Source of the DNA: Marinicella sediminis
GTDB lineage: Bacteria > Pseudomonadota > Gammaproteobacteria > Xanthomonadales > Marinicellaceae
Length of the DNA stretch: 64,000 nt
Reading direction: 5' to 3'
Assembly: GCF_002000055.1 (NCBI RefSeq)
Contig: NZ_MVBD01000011.1
Location: forward strand, 1 to 64,000
In this document: one piece after another, positions 6,865 to 62,834 of the stretch
Numbering within the stretch: the first letter of the stretch is position 1
Layout: each line of letters opens with the position of its first letter
Made by a program: the position numbers and the translations under genes
Notes under the pieces: model-generated
What the model was told of the DNA's origin: nothing
The model's input: only the letters and a program-made list of their open reading frames with translations
Database searches by the model: none

Positions 6865-6971
6865 GATTTTCCCCGGATTTTTTGTACAATTACCATAACA
6901 CAGACGGGTTGTTTTTTGAATGATTCACCATGATATCCGGTCAATGTGTGCAACAGATGACAAACAACACG

Positions 6972-27786: not shown

Positions 27787-27952
27787 TGTTTTGTCCTGAT
27801 TGAAAAATGCCAGCTTAACAAGTCTGACTGTTAGCTGCCTGACTGAAATTGCGCCGGGTATTCAATGTGTGATTGATCGCGCAGAATATGTTTATCAGGT
27901 ATGATCTGATGTAAGCGATTTACCTTGGTTGCTGAATTTAAGGCAGAACATC

Positions 27953-29389
27953 ATGAAGAAAAGCCACAAACTATTGAGCGTATTGTTCCTGACGGTGTTC
28001 AGTGAGCTGTTAATGGCTCAGTTAAAAGCCTTTCCCGAGGCAGAAGGTTTCGCCGCCATGGTCACCGGAGGACGGGGTGGTGATGTCCGCATTGTCACCA
28101 ACCTCAATGCCAGTGGTACCGGGTCATTGCAATGGGCGGTTTCTCAACCAGGCCCACGGATTGTGGTCTTTGCCGTGTCCGGACTCATTACAGGAGACCT
28201 GCACATCCCACATGGCGACCTGACCATCGCAGGACAAACAGCACCGGGCGCCGGCATCACACTGGTCGGTCACATGTATACCACCTATGGTAATGACACT
28301 GGCAATATCATCATCCGACACCTGCGCATCAGGCCACCAGATCCGGATGCTGTATGGCCCGCTAACCAACACGATGCCATTCAGTTTTCCACCGCCAATC
28401 ACATCATGCTGGACCACATCGATGCCTCCCATGGTGCCGATGAAACCATTGATTTTTGGGGAGGAGCTTCATACATCACCATTCAGTATTCTCACTTGTC
28501 TTTCCCGATATATGACACCGTTAATGGTTGGACCCACAACAAAGGCGTGATCAATCACCGGCCTTGCCTGGATTCAGGCAACTGTCAGCCTGGTGACCGC
28601 CCTGGCGGTCATATTTCAATCCTCAACAATGTCTTCACCCATTCCAGAAACCGCACCCCGGCATTATCCGTGGGGCCAGCTGAAGTGATCAACAACATCA
28701 CTTACAATGGTCGTGAGGGCTTTGTTCATCACAATGTGGCTGAAGGTGAGTTCAACATCATTGGCAACCAGTATGTGGCAGGCCCCAGCATCAGTTTATC
28801 ACCGTTTTGGTTTGACCCTGAAAACCCCAACCCACCCATTCCAACCACCTATTGGCTGCAGGATAACCGGGTAGATGACCCGGGAGAATACGTGGGCGTG
28901 GTGCAAAACCCATGGGATGATGCGTCTTTTGGTAACAGCTATACCTTTGCTTGCTGTGGGATCAACAGCGATCAATTCAATCAATCCGGAACATTTGATT
29001 TTACTGCCGACAGTGATTATGTAGCACCTCAGGTTCATGATCACAATTCGCTGGAGGATCGGCTGCTACCTGCGATTGGCGCTTATCCACATGATGTGGT
29101 GGCCAGACAATCAATTCTGGAATTGCTACAACGGTCAGGTCATTGGCGTAATTACCGGCCCGCAAATTTAATGGCAGGTCTGACAGCCACAACACCACCA
29201 TTGGACAGTGATGATGATGGCATGCCGGATCTCTGGGAACTGGCCAATGGTTTGAACCACCTCAATGGCAGCGATCACACAACCATCATGCCATCTGGCT
29301 ACAGTGCCATTGAAGAATACATCAACGCCCTGGCCACCGCGTTAATCGGTGACCTGATTTTTGCGGATGATTTTGATGATCAGCCCTGA
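27953..29389 (+). CDS. Exported pectate-lyase-like beta-helix protein with C-terminal tag
   Basis: A 478-residue exported protein. ATG 27953 opens a signal peptide (KKSHKLLSVLFLTVFSELLMAQ), with AAGG upstream. AFPEAEGFAAMVTGGRGGDV and GTGSLQWAVSQPGPRIVVF match the start of polysaccharide lyase family 1-like parallel beta-helices. NIIIRHLRIRP and HIMLDHIDASHGADETIDFWGG fit the rungs that carry the calcium-binding aspartates. After a DSDDDGMPDLWE calcium-like loop the chain ends GDLIFADDFDDQP, a version of the shared tag with two extra residues. It probably cleaves acidic polysaccharides outside the cell, but the substrate is not known. Confidence 0.85.
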   Translation: MKKSHKLLSVLFLTVFSELLMAQLKAFPEAEGFAAMVTGGRGGDVRIVTNLNASGTGSLQWAVSQPGPRIVVFAVSGLITGDLHIPHGDLTIAGQTAPGAGITLVGHMYTTYGNDTGNIIIRHLRIRPPDPDAVWPANQHDAIQFSTANHIMLDHIDASHGADETIDFWGGASYITIQYSHLSFPIYDTVNGWTHNKGVINHRPCLDSGNCQPGDRPGGHISILNNVFTHSRNRTPALSVGPAEVINNITYNGREGFVHHNVAEGEFNIIGNQYVAGPSISLSPFWFDPENPNPPIPTTYWLQDNRVDDPGEYVGVVQNPWDDASFGNSYTFACCGINSDQFNQSGTFDFTADSDYVAPQVHDHNSLEDRLLPAIGAYPHDVVARQSILELLQRSGHWRNYRPANLMAGLTATTPPLDSDDDGMPDLWELANGLNHLNGSDHTTIMPSGYSAIEEYINALATALIGDLIFADDFDDQP

Positions 29390-31064: not shown

Positions 31065-32294
31065 TTATCGGAAGTTGATTGCCACACCGTGGGGTAAGGC
31101 CGCCAAGCCAAAATGCTTGGCCAGGCTCTGACCCATGTCAGCCATTGATTTGCGGGGGCCGATGTTTTGCCCGCTGACTTCAGGTCCGTAGAACAACACC
31201 GGTACATGCTCCCTGGTATGATCTGATCCGGGTTGGGTGGGGTCGCATCCATGATCGGCCGTAATCAGTGCCAGGTCGCCCTGTTGCATCAGGGCTTCGA
31301 GTTCAGGTAATCGTGCATCAAATGCTTCCAAGGCGCAGGCATATCCGGGCACATCGCGACGGTGACCAAATAAACTGTCAAAATCAACAAAATTGACGAA
31401 CACGAGGCTGTGATCAGGCGCTTGTCTGAAGGCTTCAAGCATGGCATCAAATAAACCCATGTTGTCTCCGGCTTTGATGGATTGGGTGATGCCCCGGCCA
31501 GCGAAAATGTCTGCAATTTTACCCACTGATATCACTTCATGACCGGCTGCCTTCATGACATCAAGTAAGGTGGATTCTATCGGTGGTGTGGTCAGGTCTT
31601 TGCGGTTTGCCGTGCGCTGGAAATTGTTGGCATTGTCGCCCACAAATGGACGGGCAATAACCCGAGTGATGTTCAACTCATCAACCAACTGTTTGGCGAT
31701 GGCTGAAATTTCCAGCAACCGATCCAGGCCAAAATGTATTTCATGCGCCGCAATCTGAAACACCGAGTCAGCCGAGGTATAGCAGATGGGCTTACCGCTG
31801 CGGATGTGTTCTTCACCCATCTGTTTGATGATTTCAGTGCCTGAAGCATGACAGTTTCCCAAAATGCCCGGCAAGCCGGCTAATTCGATGAAGCGCTCAA
31901 TCAACTGATCTGGAAAACAGGGACTGCTTTTGGGGAACGTACCCCATTTGAACGGTACTGGTACACCTGTCATTTCCCAGTGCCCACTGGGGGTGTCTTT
32001 ATCCAGGCTTTGTTCGATGGCATGGCCAAAAGCGCCTTGCACGGTGGGATGATCAGTTCCACCAGCCAGGTTCATACCGCTGCTTTGTTTCAGGGCAGCA
32101 CCCAATCCCCAGCGCTCCAGGTGCGGAATCTTCAACGGACCATGCCTGACACCACTCACATCGGCTTGGCCACGCGCACATTGTTCGGCGATGTGCCCCA
32201 GGGTGTTGGCAGCCTCATCGCCATACAGTTGAGCGTCATCACTGGCACCGATGCCCAATGAATCCATCACCAATATCACTGCTCTTTTCATCAT
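31065..32294 (-). CDS. deoB: Phosphopentomutase
   Basis: A 409-residue cytoplasmic enzyme that interconverts ribose- or deoxyribose-1-phosphate and the 5-phosphate in nucleoside salvage. The metal-binding motifs are present: VMDSLGIGASDDA near the start, and the C-terminal VNFVDFDSLFGHRRD and ITADHGCDPT..SDHTREHVPVLFYG. Length matches the family. No other deo gene is nearby. It follows the winged-helix/TPR regulator with a four-base ATGA overlap, which is an unusual partner. Confidence 0.98.
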   Translation of the reverse strand: MMKRAVILVMDSLGIGASDDAQLYGDEAANTLGHIAEQCARGQADVSGVRHGPLKIPHLERWGLGAALKQSSGMNLAGGTDHPTVQGAFGHAIEQSLDKDTPSGHWEMTGVPVPFKWGTFPKSSPCFPDQLIERFIELAGLPGILGNCHASGTEIIKQMGEEHIRSGKPICYTSADSVFQIAAHEIHFGLDRLLEISAIAKQLVDELNITRVIARPFVGDNANNFQRTANRKDLTTPPIESTLLDVMKAAGHEVISVGKIADIFAGRGITQSIKAGDNMGLFDAMLEAFRQAPDHSLVFVNFVDFDSLFGHRRDVPGYACALEAFDARLPELEALMQQGDLALITADHGCDPTQPGSDHTREHVPVLFYGPEVSGQNIGPRKSMADMGQSLAKHFGLAALPHGVAINFR

Positions 32295-34612
32295 GTTCTG
32301 ACCTTTGTGTTGTGCCTCATCCGATCATTATAACCCTGTTGGTTTTCTGTTGTGGAATGGTCTGTGGACTGTTGTTTCAGTTGTTCCAGCAACAGTTGGT
32401 CTTCATATTGCCAATAATCGCCGGCTTTGAGCTTCAGTTCATTCATCAACCCCACTGCTTCGATGTGCTTTCCGGCGGCAGCTGCCGCTTGTGCCCGGTA
32501 TTTCTGGAATGGATAGATAAATGGCTTAAACATGGCCGTACGTTGCAGTTGGTCCACCAGTTTTGGCTGATTGAATGACAAATACAATTGGTTCAAACGG
32601 TTCATGACTTGCACCATTTGATCAAAGCGGCCACTGCCGTGCACGAGAACCATTGCTTCCAGATAATGCAGTTCACTGGCTGCCAGTTTGCCCTCAAGCA
32701 TGGCCAGGTCTCCCTGGTACATGGCCAATAAGGGATGGTCTTGTAAGGTCAATTCACGCACGAAGGTTTGTGCTCTGGGCACATCCGATTGCTCTATGGC
32801 CATGATCAACGAGGCTTCATTGAGCGCATCACCAATCTCTTTATGGGGGTGCTCAAGATACAATTGCCTGAGCATTTTCAGGTCTATATCAGCCTGTTCA
32901 AGGTTGTTCTCTGCCAGGTGGAGTTGCAGCAGCCATAGGTAAGCATCGGCATTGTTGCCATACAGTTCAAGTTCTGCATTCAGTCGCAGCACTTCCTGCC
33001 ATTGTTGATGGGCCAGTTGAAAACGGCCGGTTTGTTGATAGATGCGTGCCAGCTTGGTGCGGTTATCGCTGATCCCCCGGCGGTGTTTGAGCTGCTCTGC
33101 ATGGAACAGTGATTCCTTGACCAGTTGTTCGGCCTGTCTGAACTCATTGCGTTGTCTGAGGATGCTGGCCAGAACGGTTTTGGCTTGCATTTGATACCTC
33201 AGGTCGCCCGATTGCTGAAAAGCTTTGATGGCCAGCTGTGCTTTTTCAATGGCCACCAGGGGCTGATTCATTTCTCTGGCCAACTTGGCATGGGTGCTCA
33301 TGATGGTGCCATATAAATGAGGCTGGGAACTGGGATCAGTGACCTGACCGGCCATTTGTAAAGCCTGTTCGGCATTTTCAAATTGTTTGGTCTTGCGGTA
33401 GAGGATACCCTGACTGATGTAAACTGAGGCCATTCTGGCCGGATTCCTGCTTTCTTCAGCCCATTTCAGGGCTTCCAGGTAAACCTTTTCTGCCGCCGCC
33501 AATTCGCCTACAGAATCCAGACAATGTCCTTTGACCAATTCCACCCGAAAAGCCAGGTTCTGATCATTGGTCTGGATGGCCTCCAGGATACCAATGGCTT
33601 TGCGTGGATCGGCTTGCTTACGCAATGCAATGGCCAGTTCATACCAGGCCATTTTGAAATTGGGGTCCTGCTCAACGGCTGCTTCGAGGTAGGTCATCGC
33701 CTGATCGCTGTCACCAGAGACTTGTGCCGCCATGGCTTTGAAGTAACTGTGCATGGCGAACTCATTGCGGGTGTAGACCTGCTCATCCGCGGATTGGCTG
33801 ATGGCTTCAGGTCTAACCTGTTGCCGGACCCATTGACTGATGTGATCAAACAGTGTGATCAGTTGATTGGCTTCAAGTTGCTCACTGGCCTGAATGTCTT
33901 CCTGCCACTTGATTTGTACACTGGCCTGATAAGGGGGTTGTTGTTGATCAGGTTGGTGTAAATGCACCACCAGCTGGGTGAGCGCGGATGATTCCTGCCA
34001 CAAATCAAAACTGATGTAAGCGCGTTCAGCATGGCCCTCATTGATGCGACCTTGTTGAGCTTGCAAGCCATCGACGTTGTTCAGCAGGTGGCCGAGCAGG
34101 TTTTTTCCACCTGCGAGCATCCAGTTAGCCGGCTGAGCAGACTTGGGGCGGGCGCTTTGACTGACGACATGCACCTGTGGGGTGGTAATTGAGCCTGGTG
34201 GTTCTGTCCCCTGGTGCCACAGCAACCAGATGGCAATGAACACCAGCATAACACCAAATACCTTCAAACTGATGTGACTGCCTGTTTCACGGACAGGGGC
34301 ATCCTCAGGGCTGCTAACAGTTGGCAAAAACCGAAATCCCTGCCCATAAACGGTTTCAATGTATTCATCAGGCTGACAGGCATTCAGGGTTTTGCGGAGT
34401 TTAAGAACACATTGATCAATGGTGTTGTTGGTGACCACACGACCCATCCAGACTTCGTCAATCAACTCATCCCGGCTGATTAACTGATTGGGGTGAGTGA
34501 GTAAATACCGCAATAAATCATGATTCTTTTTGGTCAGGCTGAGTTCCTGACCATGATGTAACAGGGATTGCTGCTCCGGATCATATATAAATTCAGCAAA
34601 AGCGTAGGTCAT
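32291..34612 (-). CDS. CadC-like winged-helix regulator with membrane segment and TPR repeats
   Basis: A 773-residue one-component regulator. Residues 1-100 form an OmpR/PhoB-type winged helix (LTKKNHDLLRYLLTHPNQLISRDELIDEVWMGRVVTNNTIDQCVLKLRKTL..YIETVYGQGFRF). One membrane segment lies near 115-132 (SLKVFGVMLVFIAIWLLW). Residues about 290-740 are a long series of TPR-like helix pairs (AMTYLEAAVEQDPNFKMAWYELA). Such regulators bind DNA from the membrane, but the signal is unknown. Its stop overlaps deoB by four bases. Three 11-bp-phased TTCAGGA repeats upstream are its candidate operator. Confidence 0.9.
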   Translation of the reverse strand: MTYAFAEFIYDPEQQSLLHHGQELSLTKKNHDLLRYLLTHPNQLISRDELIDEVWMGRVVTNNTIDQCVLKLRKTLNACQPDEYIETVYGQGFRFLPTVSSPEDAPVRETGSHISLKVFGVMLVFIAIWLLWHQGTEPPGSITTPQVHVVSQSARPKSAQPANWMLAGGKNLLGHLLNNVDGLQAQQGRINEGHAERAYISFDLWQESSALTQLVVHLHQPDQQQPPYQASVQIKWQEDIQASEQLEANQLITLFDHISQWVRQQVRPEAISQSADEQVYTRNEFAMHSYFKAMAAQVSGDSDQAMTYLEAAVEQDPNFKMAWYELAIALRKQADPRKAIGILEAIQTNDQNLAFRVELVKGHCLDSVGELAAAEKVYLEALKWAEESRNPARMASVYISQGILYRKTKQFENAEQALQMAGQVTDPSSQPHLYGTIMSTHAKLAREMNQPLVAIEKAQLAIKAFQQSGDLRYQMQAKTVLASILRQRNEFRQAEQLVKESLFHAEQLKHRRGISDNRTKLARIYQQTGRFQLAHQQWQEVLRLNAELELYGNNADAYLWLLQLHLAENNLEQADIDLKMLRQLYLEHPHKEIGDALNEASLIMAIEQSDVPRAQTFVRELTLQDHPLLAMYQGDLAMLEGKLAASELHYLEAMVLVHGSGRFDQMVQVMNRLNQLYLSFNQPKLVDQLQRTAMFKPFIYPFQKYRAQAAAAAGKHIEAVGLMNELKLKAGDYWQYEDQLLLEQLKQQSTDHSTTENQQGYNDRMRHNTKVRT

Positions 34613-34711
34613 TGTTTCAGGTTTCAGTCAAACACATCTGATCAGTGGGCAAACGATGATAACACCGATTACCTGATTCGGAAATCAAAAAAGGGCCGAC
34701 TGATTCACGAA

Positions 34712-34740
34712 TTCAGGATTATTTCAGGACTCTTTCAGGA
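34712..34740. promoter_or_regulatory. Three TTCAGGA repeats at 11-bp period
   Basis: TTCAGGA begins at 34712, 34723 and 34734, exactly 11 bp apart, on one face of the helix. The region lies between the divergent winged-helix regulator and DUF3592 genes. A possible -10 for the latter, TACAAT, is at 34760-34765. Proteins with an OmpR/PhoB winged helix bind tandem direct repeats with this period, so the regulator encoded next door is the obvious candidate. Confidence 0.6.
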
Positions 34741-34803
34741 TTGATTGGCTTTCCACAGCTACAATCTTTAGTCATGATTCAATGAAAACAAGAGGGCATT
34801 AAG

Positions 34804-35325
34804 ATGAAGACAGTGAGTTGGGTTTTGGCGGTACTGGGGTTATTGCTGTTCGCCGTGGGTATCTGGATGCTGACCACGGCCATGGCCAGTAATGACTGGC
34901 CAACGGTGGAAGGTAAAGTGGTGACTCCCAATGTGGTGGGACGATTGCGACAGGCTACCAATGCCCGGCACCGCAGCCTGGAATACATTGTTGAAGTGAC
35001 CTACCGATATCAGGTGAAAGGTCGCTCGTACCAGGCTAAACGATATTCGCTGGGCAAAGGAATGACCACAGCAGATGGATTCAATGACCGTGCTGAGGCC
35101 CGTGAATGGATCAAACAATCACCTTATCAGCCAGGTGAACCAGTGACCGTTTATGTCGACCCGGCAGACCCCGAAAACACCGTGCTCAATGCCGGCATTC
35201 AGGGTTCAACCTGGGTGCCGGTATTGCTGGGTTTGTTGTTTGGCTTGTTGGCCTGGCTTAATCATCATGTTCTGATGAAGCAGGCCGCCAACAAACCCAT
35301 TCAGTCGGTGGTTTTCAAGATCTGA
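34804..35325 (+). CDS. DUF3592 domain membrane protein
   Basis: A 173-residue protein with an N-terminal membrane segment (VLAVLGLLLFAVGIWMLTTAMA) and a second near the C-terminus (WVPVLLGLLFGLLAWL). Between them is the DUF3592 fold: WPTVEGKVV, VEVTYRYQVKGRSYQAKRYSLG, and YQPGEPVTVYVDPADPENTVL. Function is unknown for the family. GAGGG lies upstream of the ATG, and the region before it holds the TTCAGGA repeats. Confidence 0.9.
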   Translation: MKTVSWVLAVLGLLLFAVGIWMLTTAMASNDWPTVEGKVVTPNVVGRLRQATNARHRSLEYIVEVTYRYQVKGRSYQAKRYSLGKGMTTADGFNDRAEAREWIKQSPYQPGEPVTVYVDPADPENTVLNAGIQGSTWVPVLLGLLFGLLAWLNHHVLMKQAANKPIQSVVFKI

Positions 35326-35348: not shown

Positions 35349-38147
35349 TCAATCATCAAAGCCATTGATAAAGATGACTTCGCTGGGGTCTGTAAAATGC
35401 GCTGTGAGTACTTTGTCACGTTCCATCATCAGCGCGCAGGGATTGGTTTGATCAACGCAATTTCCAAAATCCACTGACCAACCAACAAAATGCATGCCCT
35501 GATCCGGTGTGGCCACCAGGGTCAGTTCAGTACCCAGGGGAAAATCATAAGTGCAACTCATGTCACAGTTGATGCCTGATGTGCCTGCAACCTGGCCAAA
35601 GCCTTCAACCACCACCTGCAGATTCAGGTCCGGGCCACCCTGTTGATATAAAAACAACTCTTCATGCCCGGGATGATTGGCCACCGCAGTCCACTCCGGG
35701 GTTTGTCTGGCAGTAAACAGCACACCAATCCGTGCAGGGGTGACGGTGGTGTTTTCCATGACTTGCATGCGTATCCCCACAATGCTGTCAACATGCTGAC
35801 CCTGATTGCTCAGTGAAATGATCCGGCCAGTATCGGTCTGACTGTCATACAAAACCAGGTCATCACGGCGATCATCATCGCCGGCAAAGTCGATGCCATC
35901 AAAGGTGCTCTCTGTGAATTTATAAGCCACATAACGGCCACTGTCAGAAACGCTTGAGTAATAGATACTGGCATTGTCACTGTACAGCGGCAAACCCGAT
36001 TCGTTTTTTGACGCCAGGCTCAATGTGGTGTTGATCCGGTCATACATCAGCACCTGGGAATCACCCGCCTGACTGTAGTCATCGGTGGTCAAGTTGGACG
36101 CCCTTGTGATGAAGGTTATTTGAGAGCCATCGGCAGAGATATCAGCTGAATTGGACTGGTCATTGCCCTCTGTACCGGCGGCGGTTTGACTGACCCGGGT
36201 GATTGGGCCGCTGGGTAGTTGTTTGATGAACACATCTCCAAAACCATTGGTGTCAGCAGGGACCAGCTCATCACTTTCAGAATCAAAGACCACAAAAGTG
36301 TTTGCGCCGGTTCCGCCGATTGACGGTTGTACGCCAGTGGCTGCTAAACCATTGAGGTCCTCAGATACCAGGCTGATGTTTTGTGTTACGGGATCAAACA
36401 GGTAGATGTCATACGTGGTGTTGAGGTCATTGGCTGCGATGCTTTTGATGGTTTGAAACACCACCAGCCCTGCATCGTTGACTTGTGCGAGCACCCCTTC
36501 ATCAATTGCCAGAATGCTGTCATCTTGACGGTCATATAAATAAATGTGAGATGAACCCAGATCCAAAGTACCTCCGGGGTGAAAGTAATTCGATGAAAAA
36601 ACCACAAAACGTCCTGAAGGTGAGATGCCATTGACGCCGGCATTTTCGACCAGCAGCTGAATGTCGTTGCTGTGGCGGTTGAGCAGATACAAGTGGCTGA
36701 AGGCCGGATCAACCGGGTCAGGTGTCATGTTGGCTGCTTTGGTGTTGAACACCACCCACATCTGGTCACTGCTGCTGAAGGCAACTGAGATGTCATCAAT
36801 GATGGTGTGGGGATCAAACAATGGTGTGGAAACTTTAGTGAACTGTGCTGTGCTGAATTGATGAACAAAAATTTCGGTTTCACCGGGCAACACCTGTTGT
36901 TGGTTGAAGTCGCTGGCTGCTGAAATCAGGGTCAGCCGGTTGCCGTTCAGAGACAAATCGCTTCCAGCACTGTAACCATTGGCAGAAACGTTTTGTTCAT
37001 TGACCGTGATCAGGCTCAGGGTTTCTGTGGTCGGATCATAGCTGAACAAATCATAGAAGTCATTTGCATCATTGCTGACCAGGTTACTGGCATTGTGAGA
37101 AAACACGATGCGGCTGCCATCACCACTGATGTCGACGCCAGATGGAAAACCATCCGTTAACTCATGACCATTGAGGTCCAGGCTGATCCGGTTGATGATG
37201 CCATTGTCGTACACAAAAACATCATCACGGCCGTTGTTGTCATTGGCCACCAAATCACCCTGGCTGGTAATGAACACCACCACACCGGTGTTGCTGACTG
37301 CTGCGGGAATGGAAAAATCATCGAAAGCCGATGATTGCCCGGTGGGTGTGATGTTGATCAGTGTGGTGGTGTTGTTCTGGGTGTCCCGCAGAAACAGGTT
37401 GTCTCTGGAGTTTAGGATCACATCATTGGTGAGGTTGGTGGCTTCTGAAGCCATCAGGACATACCTGCCATTATCTGAGACCCCGGCCACAGCGGTGTAA
37501 TCGTCAGCAACAGCCAGCCCATCGGCAGAAATGCTGAGCAACTCATAGGTATTGTTGGTCAGGTTTTTTCGGTATACCTGATAACGAAAACTGGTTTGCA
37601 GCGGATCAATGGCGTCGCTGGAAGCAAAAGTAATGAATTGACCATCGTCACTCAGGTGAACCCCGTTATAGGTATCAAAATAAAGGCCATTGCCATATTC
37701 ACTGAGGTTGGTCAGGGTGCCGGTCACCAGGTCTTTGAGGTATATGTGGTCATAGACAGAACCCTGGTTGTTAGGCAGGGTTTCATCATCACTGACAAAT
37801 GCCACGTAGCGTCCGTCAGAAGTGGGTTTGGAATACGCTGACACGAAGCTGCTCAATTGGCTGCCATCTGAGCGACTGGTCACCAGTGTTGTGTTGCCCA
37901 GTTGCAGGTCTCTGATGAACACATCGGACAGGCCATTGTCATCACCATTGATCAGGTTGCTGGCATGTGAACCGAAGGTCACGTAGCGTCCATTGGTTGA
38001 TATTTGGGCGCCGTAAGATGTGTTGTTGGCGATGTCGCCAGCCTGACCTGTGGCTTCGGATAACCAGCTGATGAGTTGGCTTTGGGCCAGACCAGCAAAC
38101 AATAAAAAGCCCGTGGCAGACCATATTTTCAAGGTAAAAAAACGCAT
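35349..38147 (-). CDS. Exported PD40/TolB-type beta-propeller with InlB-like repeat and C-terminal tag
   Basis: A 932-residue protein with a signal peptide (FFTLKIWSATGFLLFAGLAQSQ) and a strong AGAGGAG site. Most of the chain is a run of TolB/PD40-like propeller blades (SxDGRYVAFVSDD, SDDGQFITFAS, SPSGRFVVFSS, SADGSQITFITRASNL). The last 90 residues contain one divergent InlB/Bact-repeat module (GFGQVAGTSGINCDMSCTY, GTELTLVATPDQGMHFVGW) with paired cysteines. The chain ends SEVIFINGFDD, the shared tag. It starts 15 bases after the stop of the beta-helix gene, so the two form an operon. Likely secreted or surface bound; ligand unknown. Confidence 0.88.
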   Translation of the reverse strand: MRFFTLKIWSATGFLLFAGLAQSQLISWLSEATGQAGDIANNTSYGAQISTNGRYVTFGSHASNLINGDDNGLSDVFIRDLQLGNTTLVTSRSDGSQLSSFVSAYSKPTSDGRYVAFVSDDETLPNNQGSVYDHIYLKDLVTGTLTNLSEYGNGLYFDTYNGVHLSDDGQFITFASSDAIDPLQTSFRYQVYRKNLTNNTYELLSISADGLAVADDYTAVAGVSDNGRYVLMASEATNLTNDVILNSRDNLFLRDTQNNTTTLINITPTGQSSAFDDFSIPAAVSNTGVVVFITSQGDLVANDNNGRDDVFVYDNGIINRISLDLNGHELTDGFPSGVDISGDGSRIVFSHNASNLVSNDANDFYDLFSYDPTTETLSLITVNEQNVSANGYSAGSDLSLNGNRLTLISAASDFNQQQVLPGETEIFVHQFSTAQFTKVSTPLFDPHTIIDDISVAFSSSDQMWVVFNTKAANMTPDPVDPAFSHLYLLNRHSNDIQLLVENAGVNGISPSGRFVVFSSNYFHPGGTLDLGSSHIYLYDRQDDSILAIDEGVLAQVNDAGLVVFQTIKSIAANDLNTTYDIYLFDPVTQNISLVSEDLNGLAATGVQPSIGGTGANTFVVFDSESDELVPADTNGFGDVFIKQLPSGPITRVSQTAAGTEGNDQSNSADISADGSQITFITRASNLTTDDYSQAGDSQVLMYDRINTTLSLASKNESGLPLYSDNASIYYSSVSDSGRYVAYKFTESTFDGIDFAGDDDRRDDLVLYDSQTDTGRIISLSNQGQHVDSIVGIRMQVMENTTVTPARIGVLFTARQTPEWTAVANHPGHEELFLYQQGGPDLNLQVVVEGFGQVAGTSGINCDMSCTYDFPLGTELTLVATPDQGMHFVGWSVDFGNCVDQTNPCALMMERDKVLTAHFTDPSEVIFINGFDD

Positions 38148-38162
38148 GAGAGACTCCTCTGA

Positions 38163-40244
38163 TTACTCAAAACTGTTGGCAAAAATCACATCAGAAACCA
38201 CAAAAGTGATGGCACGTGTGTAGGTGTCCTGACCACCGTTGACGACTCCGCCATCATCCCGCAGGCTGATATCTACCAGGGCCTGTCCGCTGGCGTCTGC
38301 TGCGAGCTCAAATGTCAGGTCTCCCGTACCGGGATCGATGGCAGGAAAACCACTGAAAAACCCCACCGGTGCGGCGCTGACATCAACGGCAAACACCAGT
38401 TGCTGACCGGCTTCGTTGGTTGGTCCGGCACTCAGGTCAGTCGCCCAATTGTTTACTGTTATGAACTGACCTTGAATACCAGCCACTGTCTCACTCGAAA
38501 CCGAGTAGAAGGGGGCATCATTGACTGGCTCGACGATGAATTCGGAAGTGATGGTGCTGCGATTGAACAGATCAGTGATGGTGTAATCAAAAGTGGTCAC
38601 CCCATAGCCATCTGCATCATCAGCCTGAAATTGCAAAGCCCCATCAGGCCTGAGTGTCAATTGCCCCTGGGCATCTCCGGTGCTGGTGCTGAACTGGCCT
38701 GCCGATATCACCACCAAGGGATCATCATCAACATCATTAGACAGTACACCATTGGCGGCAGTGAGGGTCAGAGTGGCTCCTTCCAGCAAGATATAACTGT
38801 CGGCAGTGGCCACTGGTAAGGGGTCACTGGCGATTGATCCCAATTCAACGGCACCAATATCGCAGCCATCAAAAAAGTCACTGATGCCTGGTTGATCCAC
38901 GCTGCGTAAGCCGCTTTGGTCGTTGTACTGCCCCCTTTGGTCGCTGGTCAGTGCATTGCACTTGCCTTGATCTACGGCCACAGAATTGATCAGTAGCTGA
39001 CGGGTTGGTGTTGGGCCTCCATTGTCAGCCAAAGGTGAAACCAACGGCAGAATAATCACCGGAGGTTCACCGACGAAGTCATCATTGATGTTTGGTTGTC
39101 CAGCGGGAAAAGTGGTACTGATCTGTTGATTGTTGCCAATCAGGTTGTTGCCAAAAGTGATAAAACCACCGGTCAGTTCCGGAGCCGCACTTTGTGACTG
39201 ATCACTGTTGCCGGCAATCAGATTATTCTTCAGGTTAACCCCGGCAGATGAAGAGGAATAGATCGCTCCTCCACCGGAATCATTGCCGGTCTGATCATTG
39301 TTAAAGTCTGCTTGATTGGCGACCCATGTGTTGTGTCGCAATGTGACTTCAGCGCTTTCCAAGGGGTAGCCCGGACCACCCATGGCCAGTGCTCCACCAA
39401 CGCCATCAGCAATGTTTTCTGAAAAAGTACTTTGTGTGATTTCCACAGTTGATACAAAAGCCGCGCCATTGGCTCTGACCAGGATGGCACCACCGGCGGC
39501 ATCATCCAAGGGGTTATTGCCTGCCAGGTTAGTGGCGGTGTTGTTGGCAAAAGTACTGTTCTCAATGATGACGTTTTGTTGGCCACCAATGAATACAGCG
39601 CCACCACCGGCCACGGTTTGATCTATGCCCTGAACGAAATTACCGGAAAAGTAACTGTCACGAATGGTTGTGGTGTTGTTGCTACCGGCGTACAGCCCTA
39701 TGGCGCCACCACCGCGTTCAGAGTTGTTGCGTAAAAAATCCACCCGTTCAATGGTCAATGAAGCCCCACTGATGTGATAAGCCCAGATCGCTGCTCCATA
39801 ATCACTGGCTGGCAAGCGGATGCTGGTGTCAGCAAAGGTCACATCGCTGATGATGAATTCGGCATCGGCTTGCAGATTACTGATTTCCAGGATTCTGCTC
39901 TGTGCAATGCCGGCAAAAGTGACCAGCTCTTTGGCGGGTCCCTTCAGATGGATTGATTCTGACAGTGTGTAGGTTTCAAAGGTGGCAAAGTAAGCCGGCA
40001 GTATGGCGTTATCAAAGGTAATCTCATCAACCACCGGATGGGCCTCGCCGGCGGCACACTCGCCAGCCAGTTGCCCTGATGCCAGGTTGGTGTTGGCGGC
40101 GTCGATGGCTTCAACCAGGGTGCACAGACCATCGTCAGCTGGCAGGTTGGTTAAATCAGTGGTGTTAATGACGATCTGGGCAGCAGACAAAGGAGTTGTC
40201 ACCAGCACAAAACTCATGAAAAAAAACAGCTTCCGGGTATCCAT
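38163..40244 (-). CDS. Exported parallel beta-helix protein (choice-of-anchor Q type) with C-terminal tag
   Basis: A 693-residue protein starting at ATG 40244 (TTG 40259 is less likely) with a signal peptide (TRKLFFFMSFVLVTTPLSAAQ). It opens with the CSLREAIDAAN-like motif TLVEAIDAANTN of Chlamydia-polymorphic-like beta helices. Right-handed rungs follow, with repeated N-x-T/S-x-x-x-N motifs. The choice-of-anchor Q region NGGPTPTRQLL..VDQG..FFDGCDIGAVELG lies near residue 450. Cadherin/Ig-like domains follow to residue 680. It ends SDVIFANSFE, the shared tag. It is the upstream partner of the propeller gene. A small lipoprotein frame lies 130 bp before it. Confidence 0.87.
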   Translation of the reverse strand: MDTRKLFFFMSFVLVTTPLSAAQIVINTTDLTNLPADDGLCTLVEAIDAANTNLASGQLAGECAAGEAHPVVDEITFDNAILPAYFATFETYTLSESIHLKGPAKELVTFAGIAQSRILEISNLQADAEFIISDVTFADTSIRLPASDYGAAIWAYHISGASLTIERVDFLRNNSERGGGAIGLYAGSNNTTTIRDSYFSGNFVQGIDQTVAGGGAVFIGGQQNVIIENSTFANNTATNLAGNNPLDDAAGGAILVRANGAAFVSTVEITQSTFSENIADGVGGALAMGGPGYPLESAEVTLRHNTWVANQADFNNDQTGNDSGGGAIYSSSSAGVNLKNNLIAGNSDQSQSAAPELTGGFITFGNNLIGNNQQISTTFPAGQPNINDDFVGEPPVIILPLVSPLADNGGPTPTRQLLINSVAVDQGKCNALTSDQRGQYNDQSGLRSVDQPGISDFFDGCDIGAVELGSIASDPLPVATADSYILLEGATLTLTAANGVLSNDVDDDPLVVISAGQFSTSTGDAQGQLTLRPDGALQFQADDADGYGVTTFDYTITDLFNRSTITSEFIVEPVNDAPFYSVSSETVAGIQGQFITVNNWATDLSAGPTNEAGQQLVFAVDVSAAPVGFFSGFPAIDPGTGDLTFELAADASGQALVDISLRDDGGVVNGGQDTYTRAITFVVSDVIFANSFE

Positions 40245-40374
40245 AAGGGTTCTCAGCAATTGAAAACCTCAGCTTAGGTTCTGCCTGATGTTGAATCATG
40301 AACGGCTTATGAAAAGGTTATTATTTTTCAGCCAGGCTCCTGACAGCTGGCTTTCATAGCAGTCATTCTGTACA

Positions 40375-40620
40375 TCAATGTTCTGTTTGTGCATCTGTCA
40401 GCACAGCAGCGTCTATGGTGTCCTGCCGGATGACGATGGTGTGAGTCAGTTGCAGAGAAAGCTGAACCGGCTTTTCTGTGGGAGACAGGTGATGAATGCC
40501 AATCAACTTCTTATCAGTTTCGGAAATCAGTGTTAAACCGTTCTGGGTGTTGACCGACGAGGCTGAAAAGCAACCCAACAGGAGCATCCAAAACCGGCTT
40601 CTGGCAGCAGAAAAATTCAT
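40375..40620 (-). CDS. Possible small lipoprotein
   Basis: An 81-residue frame with a basic N-terminus and a good lipobox, WMLLLGCFSA, with Cys17 as the likely lipidation site. A polar chain follows (LISETDKKLIGIHHLSPTEK). No ribosome site is evident before ATG 40620, and there is no recognised family. It lies upstream of, and in the same direction as, the beta-helix/propeller operon and is divergent from the second winged-helix regulator. The rest of 40245-40775 holds only the phased repeats listed separately. Confidence 0.4.
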   Translation of the reverse strand: MNFSAARSRFWMLLLGCFSASSVNTQNGLTLISETDKKLIGIHHLSPTEKPVQLSLQLTHTIVIRQDTIDAAVLTDAQTEH

Positions 40621-40675
40621 TGGCGCGTTCGATCAGACATGGTTTTCATCTTAAAGACACGGGTAATGCTTAATG

Positions 40676-40713
40676 TGATGAAGAGGTGATGGTTGTATGA
40701 TGATCGGCTGATT
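40676..40713. promoter_or_regulatory. Four TGAT repeats at 11-bp period
   Basis: TGATG, TGATG, TGATG and TGATT begin at 40676, 40687, 40698 and 40709, all exactly 11 bp apart. They lie about 60 bp before the winged-helix/TPR gene at 40776 and in its divergent region. The spacing matches tandem winged-helix binding. The half-site differs from the TTCAGGA set near 34712, consistent with a paralogous regulator of different specificity. Confidence 0.5.
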
Positions 40714-40775: not shown

Positions 40776-42746
40776 ATGACCTCTGCCCTGAGCTACCATG
40801 AACGGGTCGTCAGCGATCAGTCAATCCCACCCATGAAAAGCAGTCCTGAACACACCACTGTCTATTGTTTTGATCAGTTCGAGCTGGATGTTGAACGATT
40901 TGTGTTGCTGGCTGATGGCCAGCCTGTGACGTTGGAACCCAAATTGTTCAACTTGCTATGGTTACTGGTCCGACAGGCTGGCAAGGTGGTCACTCAGGAA
41001 GACATGATTGAGCAAATCTGGCAAGGCCGTGTGGTCACCAGCAATGCCATCTCCCGGGCTGTTTATGAATTGAGAAAAATCTTAGACCAGACACAGGGCG
41101 CAGATTCGATGATCAAAACCGTTCGCGCCAGGGGCTATCAGTTCAATGTGGCAGTGAAGCAAGTGTCAGCTTCGCCCAATAAACGCACTGCAACTCACTT
41201 CAGACCACTGTGGTTATTGTTGTCTGTTTTTATGTTGTTGGCAGTGGGGGTGATGTGGTTTGTTTTGAAAGACAATCAAGACGAATTCTCTGCAATTCAA
41301 GCGGTTGCTCAACAAGAAGTTTCATTGGTGATATTACCCTGGGTCAGGGAGCAGGCTGATGATCGGTTGGTGCATTTGTCACATGTACTGGTTGATCAAT
41401 TGATGGTCCAGTTGAGTGCCACTGATGTCAATCGGGTGATCGGCCCAGACAGTTTGTCGGGCATCTCGGCTCAATTCAATGACATGTTGACCATTCAAAA
41501 AGCCACCCATGCCAACTATATCCTGGAGGGCTTCGTCACGGAACCAGCCCCTGAACAACTGCGTTTGCACCTGACCTTACATCATTTTAACGGTGGTGTG
41601 ATGGAGCCTTATGATTTGGGGGCTTTTGATTTCCCGTGGCCGCAGGATCGGTTGGCTGTTCAGGCTTTGTATAACCAAAGGAAAAACACCGTCCGGGAGA
41701 TTGTTAAACTGATTCAGCCCAAAGCGCAATTGTTGACCGAAGATACGGGACTCATTCCTGATCCAGGGGTATATCGGTTATTGATAACGGCTCACCATTT
41801 GGGGCGCAGCAATGATTGTGAACAGATCAGTCGGGCCATGGAATTGCTCAGTGCAGCCATTGAACAGGATGACCAGTTTGCTTATGCCTGGCATCTGCTG
41901 ATGGGTAATCACTTCAAACAAATCTGGATTTGTGGCGGATCAAACGTGCATTATGACCTGGCTTTGAAAGCAGCTGAACAAGTTGAGTCATTGGCCCCCG
42001 GGCGTTTTGAATCAGCCAAAATAGCCCGCAATGCCATTTTGCTGGAACACAATAAAGTGGAACAAGCATATGAATTGAATCGCCATTTACCTGAACATAA
42101 AAATCGCCTGATGTATTTGAAAGTCTCCAATTTGCGCTACGCAGGGTTCCTCAATAAAGCCGCTGCATTGAACCAGACAATGCTGATACGTGATCCTTAT
42201 TTTTATAGTTCACGTCCCATCTATCAGGCACCAAACACCTTTCTGTACTTGAATGAGTTTGAAAAGCACCTGGCTTTACTGGCTTCACCAGGTAACCAGT
42301 ATCATGATTATTACCGGGCATTGAATCTGATGCTCAGTGGTGATGCCAGCGGCGCCCATGAGGTTTTACTGCGGGTACTGGAAGATCAGCCTAAGGGTGT
42401 TTTCGGGGATTTTTCCAGGGCCTTGCTGGCCATCATTCAAGGGGATAACCAGGCCGCCATCCGTAAGGTAGAAGAAACCATTCAATTACGCAATAAACAA
42501 GGCCTGAGTGATGGTGAAGTCACCTATAAGCAGGTACAGTTAATGGCTTTGGCCGGTGCACAAGATGATGCTTTGGATTTACTCGAGCTCACCTTGAAGC
42601 AGGGTTTTTTTGCGGCCAATTACTGGCAATCAGATCCGGCCATGAAAGCCCTGCACAACCATCCCCGGTTTAATTCCCTGGTAGCGTCAGCCCGGCAACG
42701 ACACCGGGCATTCGCCAGGCGATTTGACCTGGCAGCAGAATTTTAG
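40776..42746 (+). CDS. CadC-like winged-helix/TPR regulator (second copy)
   Basis: A 656-residue protein built like the regulator at 32291-34612. The OmpR-type winged helix lies near residues 30-130 (VTLEPKLFNLLWLLVRQAGKVVTQEDMIEQIWQGRVVTSNAISRAVYELRKIL..IKTVRARGYQF). One membrane segment covers about 148-168 (LWLLLSVFMLLAVGVMWFVL). The large outer part has an N-terminal TolB-like region (VSLVILPWVREQADDRLVHLSHVLVDQLMVQL) and TPR-like repeats. ATG 40776 is taken although AGGAG is 15 bases away; an in-frame ATG at 40833 is possible. It faces the beta-helix/propeller operon across a region with 11-bp-phased repeats and converges with the NHL-propeller gene. Confidence 0.88.
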   Translation: MTSALSYHERVVSDQSIPPMKSSPEHTTVYCFDQFELDVERFVLLADGQPVTLEPKLFNLLWLLVRQAGKVVTQEDMIEQIWQGRVVTSNAISRAVYELRKILDQTQGADSMIKTVRARGYQFNVAVKQVSASPNKRTATHFRPLWLLLSVFMLLAVGVMWFVLKDNQDEFSAIQAVAQQEVSLVILPWVREQADDRLVHLSHVLVDQLMVQLSATDVNRVIGPDSLSGISAQFNDMLTIQKATHANYILEGFVTEPAPEQLRLHLTLHHFNGGVMEPYDLGAFDFPWPQDRLAVQALYNQRKNTVREIVKLIQPKAQLLTEDTGLIPDPGVYRLLITAHHLGRSNDCEQISRAMELLSAAIEQDDQFAYAWHLLMGNHFKQIWICGGSNVHYDLALKAAEQVESLAPGRFESAKIARNAILLEHNKVEQAYELNRHLPEHKNRLMYLKVSNLRYAGFLNKAAALNQTMLIRDPYFYSSRPIYQAPNTFLYLNEFEKHLALLASPGNQYHDYYRALNLMLSGDASGAHEVLLRVLEDQPKGVFGDFSRALLAIIQGDNQAAIRKVEETIQLRNKQGLSDGEVTYKQVQLMALAGAQDDALDLLELTLKQGFFAANYWQSDPAMKALHNHPRFNSLVASARQRHRAFARRFDLAAEF

Positions 42747-42783: not shown

Positions 42784-44013
42784 TTAAAAATCAAAACCAT
42801 TCCTGAATATCAAGTCGGTGGATTCAGCTGCGCCGCTCACTCTGAAGGCATTGTCACTACCACCACCCGATACATAGACGTCCACATCGTTGCCAATGGC
42901 GACATTTCCCGGTCCATCTAATATGGCAACGCCATCACCATTGGCATCGATGATTTCAGTGATGATACATGGTGTGGAACTGGTGCTGCAATTAACCGGG
43001 TTATCAATTCGAAATGCATTGTCACCATTGCCACCGGCAAAATAGATGTTGTCGGCACTGTCAACGGCCATGTTGCCTGCTTGTTGTGGTGTTGGCGTAT
43101 TGAAAATTTCAGTGATGGTGCAAGCAGTACCAGCGGTGCTACAGGTTCCTGGGGTGTTGATTTTGAATACCGCGGCATTCTCAAAAAAACCCAGTGAGGT
43201 TAAATATACATTATCCTGACTGTCAACCACCAGCCCACGGCCAAAAGCACTGGCTGTTAAGCTTGATTCGTCAATGATTTCGGTGATCGTACATGGTGTG
43301 CCGTTGGTTGAACAGCTGCCCGGATTGGCTATTTTGAACACATTGTCTGAATTTTGTGTGGTCACAAACACATTGTTTTGACTGTCGATTGCCAAACCGA
43401 CAGGCTGGCTGATGATGTTCCCGTTGTTGTCACCTGATTCATCAATGATTTCGGTGACGGTACAGGCTGGACCTCCGGTTCCACAAGTGGTTGATGCTGC
43501 GATGCGAAAAACATTGTGAGATACAGCGCCTGCCACATAGACATGACCAGAATGGTCCACTGCTAATGCCACAGGTGTATCCAACGGGTTGCTGCCATCA
43601 CCTGACGGTCCAATGATCTCTTCAATGTTACAAGCGGTGCCGCTGGTGCTGCAGTTAATTGGATTCAAAATACGCCAGACATTGTCACTGAACTGTCCTG
43701 CAACGTAAACATTTCCGTCAGCATCGGTGGCTACTGCACTGGTACGGTCATGCGCAATGACACCGTCTCCGCTGGCATCCAGAATTTCTATGATTTCACA
43801 GTCAGCAGTGGTGCAGGATGTCGATGCACTGATGCGAAATAAATTATCGGTGTTGACGCCAGTGATGTAGACATTTCCATTGTCATCTACATTCAGTCCG
43901 ACTCCATCAACGGTGTTGCCATTGCCATCACCTGAACTGTCGATGATCTCCATGATGGCCGCCTGAGCCACGCCATTGGCCATTATAACCAGTATCAATA
44001 TCCACTTTTTCAT
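42784..44013 (-). CDS. Exported NHL/SBBP-type beta-propeller with C-terminal tag
   Basis: A 409-residue protein with a signal peptide (KKWILILVIMANGVAQAA). Seven to eight similar blades follow, each with a D-x-x-G-N-V-Y-(I/V)-(A/T) strand (DDNGNVYITG, DADGNVYVAG, DHSGHVYVAG, DSQNNVFVTT, DSADNIYFAG), an N-x-F-R-I turn and a CSTxxxxC(T/I)ITEII segment. NHL-type propellers bind proteins or sugars. The chain ends STDLIFRNGFDF, the shared tag. It is alone in its transcript, with a good promoter at 44057-44084. Confidence 0.87.
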   Translation of the reverse strand: MKKWILILVIMANGVAQAAIMEIIDSSGDGNGNTVDGVGLNVDDNGNVYITGVNTDNLFRISASTSCTTADCEIIEILDASGDGVIAHDRTSAVATDADGNVYVAGQFSDNVWRILNPINCSTSGTACNIEEIIGPSGDGSNPLDTPVALAVDHSGHVYVAGAVSHNVFRIAASTTCGTGGPACTVTEIIDESGDNNGNIISQPVGLAIDSQNNVFVTTQNSDNVFKIANPGSCSTNGTPCTITEIIDESSLTASAFGRGLVVDSQDNVYLTSLGFFENAAVFKINTPGTCSTAGTACTITEIFNTPTPQQAGNMAVDSADNIYFAGGNGDNAFRIDNPVNCSTSSTPCIITEIIDANGDGVAILDGPGNVAIGNDVDVYVSGGGSDNAFRVSGAAESTDLIFRNGFDF

Positions 44014-44056
44014 CTCATATCCCGTTAAATCAGTCGATTTACATGGACATGCCTTG

Positions 44057-44084
44057 ATTATAAATCATCAATTAAATTTGCCCA
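44057..44084 (-). promoter_or_regulatory. Sigma70-type promoter of the NHL propeller gene
   Basis: On the minus strand TGGGCA (44084-44079), a 16-bp spacer and a perfect TATAAT (44062-44057) point at the gene starting at 44013, with a predicted leader of about 35 bases. Confidence 0.6.
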
Positions 44085-59968: not shown

Positions 59969-62533
59969 CTATTCAGCAAAGTCATTTCGGTAGATCACAT
60001 CATTAACCACATTGATGGTGACCCTCGCCGGGGTGTAATTACCTTGATCATCGGTGGCCCAATACCGGAATGAGTCGGTGCCGGAGAAGCCAAAGTCTGT
60101 AAGGTATGTCACGGTTCCATCCAGGTTGTCAGTGACCAGGCCATGTTCAGGCTGAACAATGCCATCAATGCTCAATGGGTCACTTTCAGGGTCGGTGTCA
60201 TTGGCTATTAAATTGAGTACTGCTGGACGAGCAGTGCTGACCCAGTACTGATCATCCATGGCTACTGGTGATTGCGAGCTGAGGTCTATCATACCGGCTT
60301 GAAAAGCATCACGCCAGGCGTGAAATTCATTGCCAAGTAAAGCGTCCACATCTGGTCCAAGTAATGTCTTTAAACCCATTTTGTGGATCGTGCCAGTGGC
60401 TCGTTCTGTGAAGTATTCTTCAACGATCGCATAGGGTGTTCCACCGGCAGTCCGGTAATAGCCATCCTCTTCCAGGGTGTTGATCATGTCAAAGACCGGC
60501 ACACCCAGATCATCGGTGCCAGCAGGGATCGGGCTGTTGCCGATTTGGTCGGTCTTTTGTCCCACCCAGGGCAACCCTGAGCCCGCACCAGTGGCTGGTG
60601 AGAGGTATTCATAGATCCCACCATTGATGTCAATATTGAACTGTTCGGGGATCAGGTCTGCCTGGCTGAGCAACTGATCAATTGAAGGATCATATTCTTC
60701 CAAATGTTGGCTGACGTTATTAAATTGCACATCAATCAGCACATATTGGTTGGTCTCAGGCGGAACCGGGTCGGTGTAGTTTTTACTCAGAATCACTCCG
60801 ACATTCATGTCGGCAATTTGCGCACCATTGATCACCATATCACTGGTGTTGGTACCAAACTCAATGCCAAATGCCGGATTGCGAAATGGTTCCGGGGTGT
60901 TGCCTATGACATCAAAGTTTTCCAACAGGTAATGTGCAGTGTATTCCATGGCAGAGCCAGCACGGACTTCCCAGGCGGTGAAATCTTTGAAGTGGCTGTG
61001 GACATCGTGTTGCTGGTTGGGGTTGGCTTTCACCACATAAAGGCCAACTGTTGAAGCGAAACTTTCATTCCCCAGAAAAGACATGACAGGTGCGTCATCC
61101 GGTGCGGTGAGCACGCCCCGTGGCAGTGCCTCAGGCAACATGAATTCTGCGCCGGGAAAAGGCAGCATACCACTGCCCCGGTGCAGGTAGACAAAGCCGT
61201 GATTGACACTGGCGGCAATGTTGTTAACGCTGCGTACCAGACGGCCCTGAAACCAAAAGCCATCACCGGTGCGGCCCATGTCAAAAGCATCCCGGTCATT
61301 GCCATTTTTTGGGTTAAATGCACTGTTTCCTTCAGCTTTGATGGCCAAATTGGCTGTCCAGGCACCGATTTCATTACCGGTTTCTGCGACGAATCCGGCA
61401 CCAAAAGTATCGAATGACACATTGTTGTGAAAAATGGCATGGCTGTCGTGATGTACATACCCCCAACCTGGCGATCCAAATACTGCGTTGCCAATGGCAA
61501 TCACTGGTGCTTGATCATGAAAAGCACCTTTGCGGTGCAAGTGAAAGGCATAACGGCCACGTACATTGCTGGTTGGGGTGATGGTGCCAAAATCAGCCGC
61601 TTCCAGGCTTGGCATCGATTTGTCGGTGCGGCCCAATTGCCAGAATGAAACGTAACGCACATCGACATGCGCTTGTTGCATAAACATCACATGCCCCCGG
61701 CGATGTGTGGGTGTGGTGTCAGGAAATTCAGTGGCCAGGGTGATGCTTCTGCTCATGTTTGCTACCGATGTTTTCAGATCAGCTCTTGGGGTGAAGTGGT
61801 CGTACTGAAGGGTCTCATTGAGGCCAATGACAGCCCCATTGATGGCTGCAATGGTGACCACTTCATCCTGGGTGCCATGGTATCTGACTGCCTGGATGCT
61901 GTTGTCCCATTTCCAGCCAGAGTATTTGGTGCCTGCGAGTACCAGGGTATCGCCGACCTGCCAGTTCAGTGGTGCAGTTGCGAGGGTCAGTTGCTGGTCA
62001 CCGGCCATTGGGTCAACAGCCACTTTGCTGTGCGGTGTTTTGGGTAAACCATGCATGATCACGGGTCCACTGGCCAATAAGCCGCGGCTCATTAGGCTTG
62101 GGTCGCTTGTCACATCCAGGTCGCCGGTGTCACGAAACAACAAATCAATGGTGACTCCTGGCGCTACCGGGCGATTTTCTGTGCCCATGACCAAACGGCC
62201 ACTGGGTTGTACCAACAGGGTATCAACGATCATTTGACTGGATTGATGAACAGCGAAGGTCAATTGTCCCTCAACCCGGACCGCCTGCAGGCTCACTGCA
62301 CTGACCTGGTCATACACCACAGTTGTGCCGCTGGGAATCAACACCTGTGCATTGGCATCTGGTATGCTGCCTTCCTGCCAGGTGCTGGTGGCAAACCAGG
62401 AACCGGACTGACTGGCTGTGTGGGTGATACCATCATCACCAAACAAGTTATTGACCATCAATTGATGGTGGTCTGAAGCCGTTGATATGAAGCAACTCAG
62501 GATCAGACAGGCGGTTAATATGTGGTGTTTCAT
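59969..62533 (-). CDS. Exported G8-domain protein (CEMIP-like) with C-terminal tag
   Basis: An 854-residue protein with a signal peptide (HHILTACLILSCFISTASD) and a strong AAGGAGA site. Residues about 30-170 are a G8 domain (SGSWFATSTWQEGSIPDANAQVLIPSGTTVVYD, VRVEGQLTFA, LLVQPSGRLVMG). A long parallel beta-helix follows (AFHLHRKGA, GWGYVHHDSHAIFHNNVSFDTFGAGFVAETGN), as in animal CEMIP/TMEM2 hyaluronan-degrading proteins and bacterial relatives. A cadherin/Ig-like domain lies near 755-845 (LIANDTDPESDPLSIDG, FSGTDSFRYWATDDQG). It ends VVNDVIYRNDFAE, the shared tag. A polysaccharide-binding or -cleaving role is inferred. Confidence 0.85.
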   Translation of the reverse strand: MKHHILTACLILSCFISTASDHHQLMVNNLFGDDGITHTASQSGSWFATSTWQEGSIPDANAQVLIPSGTTVVYDQVSAVSLQAVRVEGQLTFAVHQSSQMIVDTLLVQPSGRLVMGTENRPVAPGVTIDLLFRDTGDLDVTSDPSLMSRGLLASGPVIMHGLPKTPHSKVAVDPMAGDQQLTLATAPLNWQVGDTLVLAGTKYSGWKWDNSIQAVRYHGTQDEVVTIAAINGAVIGLNETLQYDHFTPRADLKTSVANMSRSITLATEFPDTTPTHRRGHVMFMQQAHVDVRYVSFWQLGRTDKSMPSLEAADFGTITPTSNVRGRYAFHLHRKGAFHDQAPVIAIGNAVFGSPGWGYVHHDSHAIFHNNVSFDTFGAGFVAETGNEIGAWTANLAIKAEGNSAFNPKNGNDRDAFDMGRTGDGFWFQGRLVRSVNNIAASVNHGFVYLHRGSGMLPFPGAEFMLPEALPRGVLTAPDDAPVMSFLGNESFASTVGLYVVKANPNQQHDVHSHFKDFTAWEVRAGSAMEYTAHYLLENFDVIGNTPEPFRNPAFGIEFGTNTSDMVINGAQIADMNVGVILSKNYTDPVPPETNQYVLIDVQFNNVSQHLEEYDPSIDQLLSQADLIPEQFNIDINGGIYEYLSPATGAGSGLPWVGQKTDQIGNSPIPAGTDDLGVPVFDMINTLEEDGYYRTAGGTPYAIVEEYFTERATGTIHKMGLKTLLGPDVDALLGNEFHAWRDAFQAGMIDLSSQSPVAMDDQYWVSTARPAVLNLIANDTDPESDPLSIDGIVQPEHGLVTDNLDGTVTYLTDFGFSGTDSFRYWATDDQGNYTPARVTINVVNDVIYRNDFAE

Positions 62534-62834
62534 AGTTGTCTCCTTTGTAGCTGGTTAGGATATCATCATCTGGGGCATTGAAATTGTGATCTCATTAACA
62601 CTGTGCTGTGGTAAATCCCGGAAGGCTTTGAACCTGGCAAAATTGAATCTTCAGGATTCACCACCATCAACTGTATCGATAAAAGGGCCAGCAGATCTAC
62701 TTGATTGGGTTGTTTTTTCTGATTCATGCCGTTTTTTCTCACAGTGACTGATTAATCAGAGAAAGTGCTGCTTTGATTCGCAGAATATGCGACACCATGA
62801 TGATTAAATGGCTATTTATGAATAATTGAGGGCA
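62534..62834. other. Divergent intergenic region with a CRP-like site
   Basis: About 300 bp between the G8 gene and the DUF2235 gene. TGTGA-TCTCAT-TAACA (62585-62600) is CRP-like with one mismatch, centred 59 bp before the G8 ATG. No other site or gene is recognised. Confidence 0.35.

Follow-up and report, generated by a model that had tools for sequence, protein, structure and literature searches.

The TTCAGGA repeats and their neighbouring genes

The window (the whole stretch of DNA that was analysed, 64 kb) contains three copies of TTCAGGA at 34712-34718, 34723-34729 and 34734-34740, with start-to-start distances of 11 and 11 bp. They lie between the ORF of a regulator and that of a DUF3592 protein, exactly where an earlier note on this DNA had placed three identical 7-mers. 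As far as can be judged from the sequence, the functional unit exceeds this triplet and comprises a 33-bp box plus a -10-like hexamer. The earlier note mentions neither this hexamer nor the second box (40293-40325) nor the promoter class of the family that is described below. The features of the locus are the following:

32291..34612, minus strand: proposed regulator, 773 aa (Pfam, hydropathy, PDB match)
34711..34743, plus strand: predicted operator box, 33 bp, 11-bp direct repeats ATTCAGGATTA / TTTCAGGACTC / TTTCAGGATTG (sequence, alignment, R1 model)
34760..34765, plus strand: -10-like hexamer TACAAT, separated from the box by exactly 16 nt (TAnnnT at the same spacing in 6/6 aligned orthologous promoters)
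34804..35325, plus strand: DUF3592 protein, 173 aa, about 2 TM helices, predicted target (Pfam PF12158, E 1.3e-13; hydropathy)

The box scored 35.5 bits (E 4.4e-10 within the window) with R1, a sequence-only model built from six aligned promoter sites, among which the box itself served as a training site. Short repeats are frequent in AT-rich intergenic DNA, and the triplet might be one of them, devoid of function. However, equally spaced triples of identical 7-mers (spacing 8-15) were found nowhere else in the window and did not occur at all in 40 Markov-randomised windows. The search for TTCAGGA-N4-TTCAGGA that the earlier note had proposed gave a single location across the 3.99-Mb genome, the triplet site (the genome-wide statistics reported here are pattern searches). 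Together with the conservation, the fixed spacing and the 143 pattern matches as compared to 4 in a control (see below), the result on randomised windows makes a chance origin extraordinarily improbable.

The adjacent regulator has a winged helix of the OmpR/PhoB type (Trans_reg_C, PF00486) at residues 21-95 (E 4.4e-20), a TM helix at about 114-132 according to hydropathy, and TPR from about residue 290 according to Pfam, while no match to a receiver domain was found in it. The best PDB match of its DNA-binding domain is that of CadC (5ju7, E 7.6e-14). This plan, with a cytoplasmic winged helix, one TM helix and a periplasmic sensor, corresponds to that of CadC/ToxR-like transmembrane regulators, the topology being deduced from hydropathy; with 61.8 bits as compared to a cut-off of 400, the protein falls outside the NCBIfam CadC equivalogs. 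Two features of OmpR/PhoB-type operators are present: direct repeats at 11-bp spacing, here three and exact, with the spacing kept in orthologues, and a nearby Trans_reg_C winged-helix protein, here the adjacent regulator. The triplet is a predicted three-copy operator with an 11-bp repeat.

Inspection of the DUF3592 promoter revealed no -35 consensus. The TCA cores of the box lie 47, 36 and 25 nt upstream of the -10, and the third repeat covers the -35 position. The -10-like hexamer follows the box at a fixed spacing of 16 nt, and the position of the box suggests activation, not repression. We consider it very likely that the triplet serves as the operator within an activator-dependent DUF3592 promoter read by the adjacent membrane-anchored regulator. 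The wider prediction, that the triplet is a real switch on which this regulator or its kin lands so as to activate genes that encode membrane and surface proteins, is almost certainly correct.

According to the mechanism that we propose, the N-terminal winged helix of the regulator would bind the three repeats on one face of the DNA, and the bound array would recruit RNA polymerase as PhoB does, giving rise to DUF3592 transcription. A second, degenerate box would drive a CSLREA-like/TolB-like pair of surface-protein genes, and the periplasmic TPR domain presumably senses the input. The regulator's own gene would not be an evident target, which differs from the self-control suggested in the earlier note. 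The box indeed lies upstream of the regulator gene, only 99 bp from its start, a location that would suit a box serving mainly for autoregulation. Nevertheless, all the boxes within 300 bp upstream of listed regulators (8/8) are oriented, with their -10, away from the regulator, none was found facing the regulator gene, and in three distant orthologous loci (G019, G028 and G005) the box is on the far side of this gene. As the box is directed away from the regulator, self-control is unsupported, and autoregulation as the main function appears very unlikely; the promoter of the divergent regulator gene may still be repressed as a secondary effect.

Orthologous promoters in Marinicella

The earlier note had regarded the loss of the repeats in species that keep both genes as evidence against its proposal. 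The exact TTCAGGA is in fact absent from the orthologous loci, also in species that keep both genes, which, taken literally, would count as a refutation. The TCA triple at 11 bp persists there, however, so that an exact-pattern search alone would lead to a wrong conclusion. A degenerate triple with a lag of 11 was found in G004, G003, G002 and G015 (p 0.05, 0.01, 0.005 and 0.005, respectively, by whole-triple scoring), on the same strand in every case, at 78-114 bp from the regulator. In this scoring, the best match to the triple exceeds shuffles in L011, L012 and L038 (p 0.005-0.01) and is borderline in L009 (p 0.05). The G002 site shares the register of the window site if TTAAG, which is less conserved, is accepted as its first copy, and the G016 site is a reading by eye that is non-significant by the triple score (p 0.28).

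In the TCA register, the alignment of the six orthologous promoters is gapless across 55 columns, which include three 11-mers, 16 nt and TAnnnT. The invariant columns are TCA in copies 2 and 3 and TA...T. Because the -10 is outside the scoring, its fixed place represents independent support. A MAFFT alignment of longer flanks was gappy and was left unused.

The divergent gene is DUF3592 in G004, G003 and G015 and CSLREA-like in G002 and G016. No box was found at L010 (G017), where the regulator is 54% identical and contains an in-frame TGA, and where the divergent target is gone. In the more distant G019, G028 and G005, other genes lie upstream of the regulator orthologue, and the box there precedes a relocated nearby target (CSLREA-like, DUF3592 and TolB-like, respectively). 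Synteny of box, targets and regulator orthologue persists in nine genomes.

Among the ten closest DUF3592 homologues, a strict upstream box was found in six; two further ones have a box whose third repeat deviates at one position (by eye), which brings the total to 8/10, and no box lies directly upstream of the remaining two (G025:C6 and G005). Control of the DUF3592 gene, as the earlier note had supposed, is the claim that the comparison favours: the box faces the DUF3592 promoter and appears to move with the target genes. DUF3592 adjoins winged-helix/TPR regulators of two clades, and it does so also at G032:C514 and G025:C40. This adjacency raises the possibility that DUF3592 is a partner or a feedback component of the regulator.

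A second box upstream of a surface-protein gene pair

Beyond the DUF3592 gene, the window contains a second, degenerate box and, next to a second regulator, a triple box of a different type:

35349..38147, minus strand: TolB-like repeat surface protein, C-terminus VIFINGFDD, follows the CSLREA-like gene after 15 nt
38163..40244, minus strand: CSLREA-like/choice-of-anchor-Q surface protein, predicted target (start ATG at 40244; C-terminus VIFANSFE)
40271..40276, minus strand: -10-like TAAGCT, separated from the second box by 16 nt
40293..40325, minus strand: second, degenerate box AATAATAACCT / TTTCATAAGCC / GTTCATGATTC (sequence and register)
40375-40620, minus strand: 81-aa ORF with hydrophobic N-terminus, behind the CATCA box (sequence)
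40648-40653, minus strand: -10-like TAAGAT of the CATCA box (sequence)
40670..40702, minus strand: different-type (CATCA) triple box CATCATACAAC / CATCACCTCTT / CATCACATTAA, adjoining the second regulator
40776-42746, plus strand: second winged-helix regulator, beyond the CSLREA-like gene

The names TolB-like and CSLREA-like are descriptive and derive from sequence features, the tool-backed assignments being Flg_new_2 and choice_anch_Q, respectively. The R1 model matched the second box weakly (6.0 bits). A counterpart exists in G004 (L128), where ATTAACAATGA/ATTCATGGTGA/CATCAGGATTG is followed after 16 nt by TATGCT. Homologues of the window CSLREA-like gene stand behind boxes in relatives. The TolB-like gene is probably the operon partner of the CSLREA-like gene; its homologues in G002, G004, G005, G013 and G015 have a box of their own.

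An IFxxxF(D/E)-like C-terminal tail is common to six large proteins of the window, encoded at 3346-6924 (minus), 27905-29386 (plus), 35349-38147 (minus), 38163-40244 (minus), 42787-44064 (minus) and 59972-62554 (minus), and many proteins behind boxes in relatives end in the same way. This tail looks like a sorting or anchoring signal. No box above background was found before the remaining IFxxxF genes of the window. CATCA boxes similar to that at 40670-40702 adjoin related regulators in G004 and G017.

Comparison with PhoB, CadC and ToxR

By definition, a pho box consists of two direct repeats of 11 bp (PMC3978041). The window box resembles it in its head-to-tail 11-bp repeats with a TCA core and in overlapping or replacing the -35, and the regulator shares with PhoB the Trans_reg_C winged-helix fold. 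Given that PhoB also binds 11-bp tandem repeats, and that core, lag and rotational register are the same, the box might be a phosphate box; some matches to the general pattern described below are PhoB-like, and one precedes pst genes (G013:C1:443282). The pstS promoters of the genus differ, however, in that most of the genomes examined carry TGTCA units 25 and 14 nt upstream of the -10 (in the own genome, TGTCATATAACTGTCACAAAGG-n5-TAGAAT). The window box has three rungs of TTTCAG units (TTTCAGGA) at 47, 36 and 25 nt and none at 14, as opposed to TGTCA(T/C), and therefore lies in the rotational register of PhoB but one rung further upstream. Moreover, it occurs together with the winged-helix/TPR regulator and the targets of that protein and not with phosphate genes, and this regulator, unlike PhoB, is membrane-anchored and lacks a receiver-domain match. 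A PhoB box is thus highly improbable, and we retain the adjacent regulator as the reader. Promoters of pstS in the PhoB register were seen at L203 (around 938-993) and, similarly, in L204-L212; in G007, a PhoB-register box also precedes a response-regulator gene.

CadC is the nearest solved relative of the DNA-binding domain and has the same winged helix-TM-periplasmic plan. It binds two AT-rich TTAxxxxT sites arranged head to head (PMC5430869), whereas the TTCAGGA repeats of the window are tandem and do not correspond to a CadC operator; the periplasmic part of the window regulator, in addition, is TPR by Pfam, unlike that of CadC. The tox-box of ToxR, in the part of the source drawn on here, is the direct repeat TNAAA-N5-TNAAA (PMC8517210). 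According to that part, ToxR from Vibrio is likewise a membrane-bound winged-helix activator with a direct-repeat site, but this site consists of two AT-rich units of other sequence, and neither a TPR domain nor a fixed 16-nt link to a -10 is described there. In the ToxR/ToxS and VtrA/VtrC cassettes, the gene of the membrane regulator adjoins that of a small membrane or periplasmic protein (PMC9214523), as DUF3592 repeatedly adjoins winged-helix/TPR regulators. Unlike ToxS and VtrC, DUF3592 has a box to itself and in most cases is oriented divergently or convergently, and its role as a sensor partner is only putative. The kind of operator is known, and what is new is the three-rung, upstream-shifted, paralogue-specific layout. 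A limited literature search found no description of TPR-sensor members or of their operators. The locus yields a predicted operator, target set and positional rule for membrane-tethered one-component regulators.

A promoter class in the family

With the R1 model, further sites were detected upstream of genes for surface proteins in several species. Matches with E of about 0.01-1 outside the regulon (for example at enoyl-CoA hydratase-like genes, L064 and L066) were taken as chance.

When 33 genomes of the family were searched for TCA-N8-TCA-N8-TCA-N22-TAnnnT, 143 matches were listed, as compared to 4 for the reversed control. Shortening the -10 spacing by one base (N21) gave 28 vs. 14 in the control, and a lag of 10 bp instead of 11 gave 22 vs. 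12. The genes that follow the 143 matches mostly encode exported proteins. Since the class includes some PhoB-like sites, 143 is not the regulon size of the window regulator. No more than 6 kb separate 31 of the 143 matches from a listed regulator, where about 2 were expected (an estimate from covered length), so that boxes are enriched about 15-fold near winged-helix/TPR regulators. At 67 sites, A is preferred at those -10 positions that the pattern leaves free (58% and 67%; compare TAtAAT); an ORF starts within 110 nt downstream of 62 of these sites, and 51 of these 62 ORFs have a hydrophobic N-terminus. Many proteins behind boxes end in IFxxxF(E/D). These observations suggest that the same promoter design recurs before surface-protein genes across the family, with repeat letters that track the adjacent regulator, and predict co-regulation of IFxxxF-tailed surface proteins, which offers a handle on their function. 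The pattern shows a modest excess in other families of the order, and because this excess is partly PhoB-like (TCAC/TCAT, by eye), the class is claimed for Marinicella and genus g3 only.

Covariation of repeats and regulators

Across 26 pairs of regulator and box, regulators with more identical winged helices tend to have boxes that are more similar outside TCA (Mantel, r 0.52, p 5e-5); with one member of the window regulator's orthogroup retained, r was 0.47 (p 5e-5). Shared ancestry of the loci contributes to this covariation, so recognition is supported but unproven. Nonetheless, the covariation of the repeats with the DNA-binding domain, together with the conserved degenerate triple and -10 spacing, argues for the earlier note's view that the repeats are an operator of this regulator family.

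The operator may be real and still be read by a different protein, such as a paralogous winged-helix/TPR regulator, a soluble response regulator, or several of these. The own genome contains 16 winged-helix matches to the regulator, the regulator itself counted, and TTTCAG-type boxes are present at other loci of it; as similar TTTCAG units occur at several paralogues, one of these could bind the window box. An orphan DUF3592 gene in G013 also has a near-perfect box (by eye) with no close regulator orthologue nearby. We consider a different reader unlikely, because box, targets and orthologue are syntenic in nine genomes and the box covaries with the domain of the adjacent regulator, which remains our preferred reader.

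The paralogous regulators of Marinicella and its sister genus appear, from their sequences, to use the same layout with repeat sequences of their own. We are somewhat inclined to see in them an expanded membrane-anchored winged-helix/TPR system in which each member would act through its own three-rung 11-bp operator, placed one rung upstream of the PhoB register and at a fixed 16 nt from the -10, on genes for IFxxxF(E/D)-tailed surface proteins, often with DUF3592, so as to form a library of matched pairs. If true, this expanded regulator-operator family would provide natural matched pairs for reading the recognition code of the OmpR family, since dozens of paralogue-box pairs in one family, with three unit copies each, are data on OmpR-type DNA choice. 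Units common to orthologous pairs are ATTCACGATTA-like in L148 and L152 and AATCAGAA-like in L143 and L146. Back-to-back divergent triple boxes were observed near one regulator in L148 (3081, minus, and 3087, plus) and in L152 (3594, minus, and 3656, plus); the two boxes of L148 differ in their unit, TCACGATTA vs. TCATAAA.
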